Part shown: positions 38,171 through 47,750 of the stretch, in pieces
How the letters are laid out: each line of letters begins with the position of its first letter
Position numbering within the stretch: the first letter of the stretch is position 1
From: Bacteroidales bacterium
Lineage (GTDB): Bacteria; Bacteroidota; Bacteroidia; Bacteroidales; JAGONC01
DNA length: 64,000 nt
Assembly: GCA_028716265.1 (NCBI GenBank)
Contig: JAQUQD010000004.1
Location: forward strand, 1 to 64,000
Reading direction: 5' to 3'
The notes under the pieces: model-generated
Told to the model about the DNA's origin: nothing
The model's input: only the letters and a program-made list of their open reading frames with translations
Databases searched by the model: none
Translations under genes and position numbers: made by a program

Positions 38171-39103
38171 TCAGGACAGTTCAAGCATACGTTCGATGGG
38201 CTTTTTAGCCTTAAGAATCAGGTCACCTGACAATTTGATTTCAGGCTTTTCGTTTTTAAGGCATAAATATAGCTTTTCTACGGTATTCAGTTTCATATAG
38301 GGGCAATCATTACATGCGCAGGTCTGATCCGAGGGAACGACAAAAAACTCCTTGTCAGGTGAAGCTTTTTTCATTGGATGCAGTATTCCTGTTTCAGTAG
38401 CCACTATATATTTCCGGGAGCTGTCCCTGATGGTAAACTTCAGCAGGGCGGTAGTGGATCCAATGAAATCGGCCAGTGCCAGTATCTGGGCTTTGCATTC
38501 AGGATGAGCGATCAGTTTTGCATCCGGGTGCTCCGATTTCAGCCGGATTATCTGTTCAACCGAAAGAATATCATGTACTTCGCAGGTTCCGTTCCAAAGA
38601 ACCATGTTTCTTCCCGTGACTTGGTTCACGTACCCGCCCAGGTTCTTATCCGGGGCAAAAATGATGGGCTGATCTTCAGGAAAGGAGTTGACGATCTGAA
38701 CCGCATTGCTTGACGTGCATATCACATCCGACATGGCCTTTATGGCAGCAGAACAATTGATATAGGAAATGACCACATGATCAGGATATTTTTCTTTGAA
38801 TGCAGCGAATTCCTGCGGTGGACAGGAATCGGCCAGTGAACACCCGGCTTTCATGTCTGGTAGAAGCACTTTACTGTCTGGACTTAATATTTTTGCAGTC
38901 TCGGCCATAAAATGAACGCCGGCAAACACGATGATACCGGCCCTGACACGGGCTGCCTGCTGGGATAGTCCAAGACTGTCGCCAACCACATCAGCCAGAT
39001 CCTGTATTTCAGGTACCTGATAATAGTGGGCCAGCAGGATGGCATTTTTTTCTTGCTTCAGGCGTTTTATCTCTTCAATCAGCTTTTGATGATCCTTTTT
39101 CAT
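38171..39103 (-). CDS. nadA: Quinolinate synthase
   Basis: '[31 protein letters not shown]', '[18 protein letters not shown]', '[24 protein letters not shown]', '[13 protein letters not shown]'. Confidence 0.97.
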
Positions 39104-39627
39104 TTCTTTGCTTTTCTTCCTATGAACAGCACGAATTAATAAATAATTTTAATAAAAAATAGTATATATTATTAATAGCTGTTCATAGTGTTTAAAAAAT
39201 GCAGTCATTCTTCTTGGTATTTTCAATATTAAGGAACGGCTAACAGAATTCATGAATATACAAACAGTTACTTGTATGATTATACAGATGATGGCCGGTT
39301 ATCAACAGGGTGTTTATAACCTTCAGTGTTAATAAAAAAATCATGTTCTATCGGTTTTTTCTGTTTATAAAAAGTTCACATTATTTGATAAAATGTCGGT
39401 TATTTTTATGGATCGCTATGCATGACCGATTTCATGTTTTTATAAATAGTTGATAACAAAATTAAACAGTTATTAACAATGAATTGTTTAAATGTTTTAA
39501 AAAATTGATCTTTAGTTAAATAGATAAAAAACAGAACGGCATGCAACCGGTTATGAAGGTCCAAAATTAAGATGTTCCGGTGTACATCACCGGGTATGAG
39601 TTATTTTTGTGAAAGTAAACACCAATT
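39104..39627. other. Candidate chromosomal replication origin region (oriC-like)
   Basis: AT-rich intergenic region; TTAT(C/T)AACA DnaA-box-like motifs at 39299-39307 (+), 39327-39335 (-), 39470-39478 (+), and TTATCAACT at 39448-39456 (-); AT-rich (~94%) core inside an 11-bp perfect inverted repeat; gene polarity diverges here; parS sites 6-8 kb away. Confidence 0.5.
39120..39188. repeat. Inverted repeat CTATGAACAGC...GCTGTTCATAG flanking a 47-nt ~94% AT segment
   Basis: Arms at 39120-39130 and 39178-39188 are perfect reverse complements; ATTAATAA/TTATTAAT extends pairing inside. Confidence 0.9.
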
Positions 39628-40065
39628 ATGAAAACAATTGCCATTGGATGTGATCATGCGGGGTTTGAACTCAAGGAATATTTAAAGGAACGCCTTTTAT
39701 CCCATGGTTATCTGGTGAAGGATTTCGGGACAAACAGCATCGAAAGCGTTGATTATCCCGATATCATTCATCCGCTGGCGGCAGCCGTCGATAAGCACCT
39801 TTTTGAAACAGCGGTCATCATATGCGGTACAGGGCTAGGGGCAAGCATGGTTGCCAACAAATATCCCGGTGTGCGGGCAGCATTATGCTGGTTACCGGAA
39901 ATTGCATTGCTGGCGCGAAAACACAACAATGCCAATGTGCTTGCTCTTCCGGGAAGATTTATCAGTCCGGATGTGGCCTGGAAGGTGGTGATGGCATTTC
40001 TTTCCACTTCTTTTGAAGGCGGCCGTCATGAACGCCGGGTAAATAAAATATCACCGATCCTGTAA
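39628..40065 (+). CDS. rpiB: Ribose 5-phosphate isomerase B
   Basis: 'MKTIAIGCDHAGFELKEYLKERL', 'VDYPDIIHPLAAAV', 'VIICGTGLGASMVANKYPGVRAALCW', 'NNANVLALPGRFISPD'. Confidence 0.96.
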   Translation: MKTIAIGCDHAGFELKEYLKERLLSHGYLVKDFGTNSIESVDYPDIIHPLAAAVDKHLFETAVIICGTGLGASMVANKYPGVRAALCWLPEIALLARKHNNANVLALPGRFISPDVAWKVVMAFLSTSFEGGRHERRVNKISPIL

Positions 40066-45825: not shown

Positions 45826-45831
45826 AGTCCT

Positions 45832-45847
45832 TGTTTCACGTGAAACA
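45832..45847. other. parS: parS centromere-like site (TGTTTCACGTGAAACA)
   Basis: Exact 16-bp palindrome identical to the ParB/Spo0J parS consensus; located between ybeY and mnmG. Confidence 0.92.
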
Positions 45848-45857
45848 TTCCGGTGCT

Positions 45858-47729
45858 ATGTCTGGTGAATATGATGTCATTGTTGTCGGAGGAGGCCATG
45901 CAGGCTGTGAGGCCGCTGCTGCAGCCGCACGCATGGGTTCCCGTGTGCTGCTGATCACCATGGGCATGACCACCATCGCCCAGATGAGCTGTAATCCCGC
46001 CATGGGAGGTATCGCCAAAGGACAGATCGTCAGGGAGATCGACGCCCTTGGTGGCTTTTCAGGGATCGTCACCGACCGGACCATGATTCAGTTCCGGATG
46101 CTCAACCGTTCCAAGGGCCCCGCCATGTGGAGCCCCAGGGCCCAGAGCGACCGCGCCCTCTTTTCCAGGGAATGGCGTCACGTGCTGGAAAGCATCCCTA
46201 CCCTTTTCTTTCGAGAAGATATGGTGACTGGTCTGGTTTGCACTGACCATCAGGTGAAGGGCGTGACCACCCAGATGGGACAAACCATCTATTCCAGGGC
46301 GGTCATCCTTACCAACGGAACCTTTCTCAATGGCGTGATCCATATTGGCGAAAGCCATTGGGAGGGAGGACGGATCGGTGAAAGAGCAGTGCGGTGCCTG
46401 ACCGAAAACCTGGTTAGCCTGGGTTTTGAAACGGACCGGATGAAAACAGGTACCCCTGTCCGACTGGATGGACGCACCATTGATTATTCAAAACTCGAGG
46501 AACAGAAAGGAGATGACGTACCGGGCCGATTTTCATTTACGGACACCCCCCCGCTGAACCGTCAGCGCAGTTGTTACCTTGCCTGGACAAATGAAAAAGT
46601 GCATGCCGTCCTGCGGACCGGATTCGACAGGTCCCCTCTGTTCGTAGGCCGGATAAAAGGAATCGGGCCAAGATACTGTCCCTCCATCGAAGACAAAATC
46701 GAACGGTTCAGCGATAAGCTCTCTCATCAGCTGTTTGTGGAACCGGAGGGGTGGGATACCGTTGAGGTCTACCTGAACGGTTTTTCATCTTCATTGCCGG
46801 AAGATGTTCAATACAATGCCCTGCGGCTCATTGAGGGCTTTGAAAACGTAAAGATCTTCCGCCCGGGATATGCCATTGAATATGATTATTTTCCCCCGGT
46901 ACAGCTACAGGGTTCTCTTGAGACCAAACGGATCAGGCATCTCTTTTTTGCAGGCCAGATCAACGGCACCACCGGATACGAAGAAGCCGCCGCACAGGGG
47001 ATCATGGCAGGCATCAACGCTCACCTCAGGATCAACGGACAATCCGAATGCATCCTTAAGCGCTCCGAAGCATACATCGGCGTCCTGATCGACGATCTGA
47101 TCACCAAAGGAGTAGATGAGCCTTACCGGATGTTCACCTCACGGGCAGAATACCGGATATTGCTGCGACAGGATAATGCCGACCAACGCCTGACACCGCT
47201 TGCTTTCCGGCTTGGACTGGCAGGCCCTGACCGTATGCAGCGCCTGGAACAAAAGACCGGGAACATCGGCAGGCTCCGGAAATTTCTTTTTACCTCCAGT
47301 GTTGCACCCGATGAGGTCAACGCCTACCTGGCCCTGGGCAATTCAGCCCCGCTGGATCAAAGCGTGAAAATGGCTTCCCTGCTTCTGCGTCCCCAGGTCA
47401 GCATACAGGGATTGCAGTCATGCCTTCCCTCCCTTCGGGAGTTTGTTCAAAAAATGGGATCCTGCGGACCGGAAGTTATGGAAGAAACGGAGATCATGAT
47501 CAAATACGAGGGTTATATCAGCAGGGAAGAAGAAATGGCCTACCACCTGTCGAAGGTGGATGATATCTTTCTCAAGGATACGATCGACTATCATTCAATA
47601 AATGCGCTTTCTTTTGAAGCCAGGGAAAAACTGAACAAAATCCGGCCCAGGACCATCGGCCAGGCTTCCAGGATACCCGGGGTTTCTCCGGCAGATATAT
47701 CCGTATTACTCGTCTTTTTAAGAAGATAA
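45858..47729 (+). CDS. mnmG: tRNA uridine-5-carboxymethylaminomethyl(34) synthesis enzyme MnmG (GidA)
   Basis: 'YDVIVVGGGHAGCEAAAAAARMG', 'CNPAMGGIAKGQIVREIDALGG', 'GTFLNGVIHIG', 'TGTPVRLDGRTID', 'TGYEEAAAQGIMAGINA', C-terminal 'ASRIPGVSPADISVLLVFL'. ATG 45858 preferred over TTG 45831, which would translate parS (MFHVKH). Confidence 0.97.
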   Translation: MSGEYDVIVVGGGHAGCEAAAAAARMGSRVLLITMGMTTIAQMSCNPAMGGIAKGQIVREIDALGGFSGIVTDRTMIQFRMLNRSKGPAMWSPRAQSDRALFSREWRHVLESIPTLFFREDMVTGLVCTDHQVKGVTTQMGQTIYSRAVILTNGTFLNGVIHIGESHWEGGRIGERAVRCLTENLVSLGFETDRMKTGTPVRLDGRTIDYSKLEEQKGDDVPGRFSFTDTPPLNRQRSCYLAWTNEKVHAVLRTGFDRSPLFVGRIKGIGPRYCPSIEDKIERFSDKLSHQLFVEPEGWDTVEVYLNGFSSSLPEDVQYNALRLIEGFENVKIFRPGYAIEYDYFPPVQLQGSLETKRIRHLFFAGQINGTTGYEEAAAQGIMAGINAHLRINGQSECILKRSEAYIGVLIDDLITKGVDEPYRMFTSRAEYRILLRQDNADQRLTPLAFRLGLAGPDRMQRLEQKTGNIGRLRKFLFTSSVAPDEVNAYLALGNSAPLDQSVKMASLLLRPQVSIQGLQSCLPSLREFVQKMGSCGPEVMEETEIMIKYEGYISREEEMAYHLSKVDDIFLKDTIDYHSINALSFEAREKLNKIRPRTIGQASRIPGVSPADISVLLVFLRR

Positions 47730-47734
47730 CCATA

Positions 47735-47750
47735 CGTTCCACGTGAAACA
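47735..47750. other. parS: Second parS-like site (CGTTCCACGTGAAACA)
   Basis: 14/16 to the perfect site; the only outer mismatch is base 1, and position 5 is a known variable position (TGTTNCACGTGAAACA). Lies between mnmG stop and next ATG. Confidence 0.8.

Follow-up and report, generated by a model that had tools for sequence, protein, structure and literature searches.

Replication origins in the Bacteroidetes commonly lie far from dnaA, according to the account of the Prevotella intermedia OMA14 origin in PMC4755523, which cites DoriC on this point, and the same account places the oriC of chromosome I at multiple DnaA boxes that coincide with the GC-skew transition and are not near dnaA. 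The Escherichia coli type of origin (gidA/mioC) pairs a box cluster with an AT-rich unwinding element away from dnaA, whilst in Bacillus subtilis and others a basal unwinding system arranges a DnaA box, a spacer and DnaA-trios in that order (PMC8287927). The locus described here, a noncoding gap between nadA and rpiB of a Bacteroidales bacterium, is very probably the chromosomal oriC of its host. It shares with P. intermedia, a member of the same order, boxes at a skew transition away from dnaA, but the P. intermedia origin was predicted with E. coli-type boxes (PMC4755523). The features of the E. coli type listed above recur, as does the presence of gidA (mnmG) in the neighbourhood, yet the immediate flanks are nadA and rpiB and the boxes read TTATNAACA, one base different from the canonical TTATNCACA. 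An origin far from dnaA is already known for the Bacteroidetes from the OMA14 account (PMC4755523); what may be new is the combination of detail, with the TTATNAACA dialect, the stable nadA-rpiB address and the position of dnaA near the terminus each a possible novelty. No paper that we found names this address or dialect, in a search that did not extend to DoriC itself, and a literature search with the box sequences returned unrelated matches only.

The window, which is the whole 64,000-nucleotide stretch of DNA that we analysed, lies on contig C4 of a 3.09 Mb draft genome in 166 contigs, the closest named records being a Lentimicrobiaceae and a Bacteroidetes metagenome assembly. The preliminary description had reported an AT-rich gap of ~520 bp between divergent genes, and 524 bp indeed separate nadA (minus strand) from rpiB (plus strand), at a GC content of 27.7% against 49% for the window (Table 1). 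Neither RNA families (Rfam search) nor tRNAs were found in the window. The gap carries six TTATNAAC(A/T) boxes where 0.24 are expected, the densest cluster of the window; counted as TTATNAACA there are five (six including TTATNAACT), against a shuffle mean of 0.16–0.24, and none of 2000 dinucleotide-preserving shuffles made from the gap sequence reached the box count of the gap itself. All four motifs of the preliminary description are among them (39299 and 39470 on the plus strand, 39327 and 39448 on the minus strand), joined by two that it overlooked, TTATAAACA at 39311 and 39362, both on the minus strand. Two of the boxes form an inverted pair, TTATNNACA-N3-TGTNNATAA (39299–39319), whose single occurrence in the 3.09 Mb genome is in the gap. 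A looser inverted pattern matched, genome-wide, the gap and five copies of one 25 bp repeat and nothing else, and a same-direction box pattern gave two matches in the gap and one at each of three other places.

The 25 bp repeat (TTATTAACATATTGATTGTTAATAA), identical in its five copies, has the form of an imperfect inverted repeat whose two ends resemble boxes, and it seems to belong to a repeated element. The inverted pair was also considered as an origin marker for the whole order and dropped; it was found in 92 of 395 genomes, in many of them elsewhere too, and in relatives G193 and G178 the copy found lies away from the skew minimum, so the pair is not a universal marker.

Table 1 Features of the nadA-rpiB gap and its surroundings (positions in the window unless a contig is given)
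Feature	Position	Strand	Remarks
nadA (quinolinate synthase), flanking gene	38171..39103	-	starts at 39103
Proposed oriC, AT-rich noncoding gap	39104..39627		524 bp, 27.7% GC, between nadA and rpiB
Proposed DNA unwinding element	39131..39177		94% AT
DnaA-trio-like repeats TAT TAA TAA TAT	39166..39177	-	run into AT-rich stretch
Weak DnaA box CTATGAACA	39180..39188	-	spacer GC, then trio-like repeats; aligned block conserved in family
DnaA box TTATCAACA	39299..39307	+	position kept in L003 and L004
DnaA box TTATAAACA	39311..39319	-	inverted pair with 39299 box, 3 bp spacer
DnaA box TTATTAACA	39327..39335	-	position kept in genus
DnaA box TTATAAACA	39362..39370	-	position kept in genus; relatives have TTATGAACT or TTATCAACA
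DnaA box variant TTATCAACT	39448..39456	-	motif match
Family-conserved block TTGATAACAAA-N2-TAAACAGTTATTAACAA-N4-TTGTTTAAA	39450..39492		five-sequence family alignment
DnaA box TTATTAACA	39470..39478	+	invariant in genus, nearly invariant in family
rpiB (ribose-5-phosphate isomerase B), flanking gene	39628..40065	+	starts at 39628
mnmG (gidA)	45831..47729	+	in DUF4175-HATPase-ybeY-mnmG run, also at G270 candidate origin
parS, perfect 16 bp palindrome TGTTTCACGTGAAACA	45832..45847		6.2 kb from gap
parS-like site	47735..47750		2 mismatches; 8.1 kb from gap
25 bp repeat TTATTAACATATTGATTGTTAATAA, copies	G000:C2:80274, C15:49786, C32:33764, C61:81, C76:12386		one near contig end

Orthologues of nadA were present in 50 of 60 relatives. 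Of the named loci, 69 had 500 bp or more of sequence upstream of nadA, and in 68 of these rpiB was adjacent and divergent, the commonest local order being lutB-rpiB/nadA-MORN (52 of 80 loci). Counts of 9-mers made with no prior choice of motif, in the gaps of 68 relatives and the window's own, returned TTATCAACA as the most enriched (36 gaps against 1.65 expected) and TTATTAACA within the top five (49 gaps against 4.4 expected); at box position 6, A was preferred over C by 210 to 17 across these gaps. The count drops to 0–1 boxes for 11 of the 69 orthologous gaps, and the 1.5 kb upstream of nadA hold just two boxes in G193 and G178. Conservation in related genomes, which the preliminary description had proposed as a check, was evident in box positions kept within the genus and in clusters that recur in the orthologous gap of many families. 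On a contig of the same genus, of which 400 kb were examined, the gap is the sole place with at least three boxes in 500 bp. When five sequences of the family were aligned, conservation within the gap was highest over the block given in Table 1, which was not found outside the family with the same pattern. This block carries inverted TAAACA/TGTTTA halves.

Divergent genes such as nadA and rpiB require promoters in the space between them and divergent promoter regions are usually AT-rich, which raises the alternative that the gap is an ordinary promoter region and the repeated motif the operator of a transcription regulator; some of the boxes may also regulate the two genes. A simple operator leaves unexplained, however, the switch in GC skew, for which the evidence comes from relatives of this draft genome. 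Samples of 20 kb were taken, twenty per genome for G156, G128, G401 and G270 and ten for G193 and G178 (20 kb per 120–340 kb of chromosome), a sparse sampling that places the switch to about 5–10% of the chromosome in complete relatives. G156 and G128 are closed or near-closed relatives that retain nadA-rpiB. In the former (4.81 Mb), where dnaA lies at 0.4 kb and nadA-rpiB at 2.48 Mb, skew was for the most part negative as far as 2.42 Mb and positive beyond 2.47 Mb. The latter (a 5.26 Mb contig) has nadA-rpiB at 4.65 Mb and its dnaA, close to the opposite switch, at 2.16 Mb; skew there was mostly negative between 2.08 and 4.66 Mb and positive over 0–0.28 Mb. The sign change in both thus falls at nadA-rpiB and not at dnaA, the outcome that the preliminary description had expected of an origin in the gap. 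On the same-genus contig G001:C12 (454 kb), the gap at about 411.5 kb is itself a local minimum and lies within about 15 kb of the cumulative skew minimum at 396.8 kb, and in G193 and G178 the skew-minimum interval includes nadA. Two further relatives bear directly on the promoter alternative. In G401, nadA has moved away and the boxes and skew minimum have stayed with rpiB at 0.22 Mb. In G270, the skew minimum near 2.39 Mb falls at a four-box cluster just upstream of another gene, DUF4175, the first of a DUF4175-HATPase-ybeY-mnmG run that is also present in the window; this cluster is the best candidate for the G270 origin, the alternative being nadA, 0.1 Mb away. Taken with the skew switch, these two genomes make a promoter region with a repeated operator a very unlikely account of the gap.

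The limited resolution of the sampled skew leaves room for a true origin nearby, within tens of kilobases, in which case the gap would serve to titrate or regulate DnaA in the manner of datA or DARS, and titration sites can hold clustered DnaA boxes. We consider this likewise very unlikely, given that the inverted pair is unique to the gap in the whole genome, that no other place in the 400 kb examined on the same-genus contig has three or more boxes in 500 bp, and that the boxes are adjoined by an AT-rich stretch that resembles an unwinding element and bears a box-trio pattern. This stretch, described beforehand as extremely AT-rich, has the composition given in Table 1, and most of the 69 orthologous gaps have their AT-richest 45-mer close to nadA, no more than about 125 bp away. 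With the basal unwinding system defined as a DnaA box, a spacer of at most 16 bp and at least three NAN trios, the minus strand from 39188 to 39166 holds a putative example, recognised by its sequence, in which box, short spacer and NAN trinucleotides lead into the AT-rich stretch as in B. subtilis. It differs from the B. subtilis system in that CTATGAACA is a one-mismatch box and the trios are TAT/TAA, not 3'-GAT-5', and the pattern is recognisable in just 17 of the 69 orthologous gaps (against 0–6 in shuffled sets), often 65–95 bp from nadA and on the same strand.

Near the proposed oriC lies mnmG (gidA), which is oriC-linked in many bacteria. The parS sites that the preliminary description had put at 6–8 kb were located at 6.2 and 8.1 kb from the gap. 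The perfect site falls within the start of mnmG, where it codes for the first residues FHVKH, and parS occupies the corresponding position on the same-genus contig (L125:10407).

That the origin sits instead beside dnaA, as is common in bacteria and in keeping with the numbering of several complete relatives in the collection from dnaA, the cluster in the gap being a chance or unrelated feature, is scarcely credible when the genome has no boxes near its dnaA and skew refutes such an origin in the relatives, dnaA lying in the terminus half in six of six (G156, G128, G401, G270, G193 and G178). The genome encodes one full dnaA (E = 6.1e-62), on contig C17, in line with the earlier remark that the window has none, and a rival box cluster was sought beside it, with no boxes found in the 3.5 kb around the gene. 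To call the candidate origin not adjacent to dnaA was accordingly correct, and such an arrangement is normal for the phylum by the OMA14 account (PMC4755523). As a fraction of the chromosome (0.5 being the maximum), the distance from origin to dnaA was 0.48 in G156, 0.47 in G128, 0.40 in G401, 0.39 in G270, 0.40 in G193 and 0.33 in G178, with nadA as the proxy for the origin in the last two; for P. intermedia it is about 0.34 from figures given in the OMA14 account (PMC4755523). For six placements that were uniform and independent, the chance that every one reaches 0.33 is about 0.0015, but these genomes share ancestry, and we regard the terminus-half placement of dnaA across six related genomes as a lead. 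Short DnaA-family ATPase matches, in frames of ~250 aa, occur in G156 (20 places) and also in G213, G165, G114 and others, where they inflate dnaA counts; several score identically within one genome, and they probably correspond to the (IstB-like) ATPase gene that a repeated insertion sequence carries.

The DnaA protein of this genome reads KDHA where E. coli has RDHT, at positions 432–435 of the E. coli protein, which are reported as base contacts (PMC5043019). That the residue change is tied to the change in the box is a hypothesis only, as all parsed relatives have HA at the last two of these positions and so provide no contrast group.

The boxes, their conservation, the skew switch in relatives and the lack of a cluster at dnaA all support the origin put forward in the preliminary description. 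In the mechanism we propose for an oriC in the nadA-rpiB gap, DnaA, encoded elsewhere, would bind the six TTATNAACA-type boxes at 39299–39478 and also the weaker box at 39180–39188, from which it would spread along the trio-like repeats into the AT-rich stretch. Melting of that stretch would allow the helicase to load and forks would depart both ways from the gap, whilst ParB at the parS sites 6–8 kb off would probably organise and segregate the newly copied origin. We extend this to the Bacteroidales as a whole only tentatively, as a rather doubtful generalisation in which a TTATNAACA dialect read by a changed DnaA (KDHA vs. RDHT), a fixed nadA-rpiB address near mnmG and a dnaA in the terminus half would hold across the order. 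If true, the initiator gene would be among the last to be copied, which would overturn the dosage logic usually attached to dnaA-oriC linkage.

For a large group represented mostly by draft metagenome assemblies, the nadA-rpiB gap with its TTATNAACA boxes offers a specific, conserved origin marker. Numbering from dnaA and default TTATCCACA searches would mislead origin calls and estimates of replication rate in Bacteroidales drafts, and with such a marker it becomes testable from sequence whether dnaA and oriC lie apart in the phylum.
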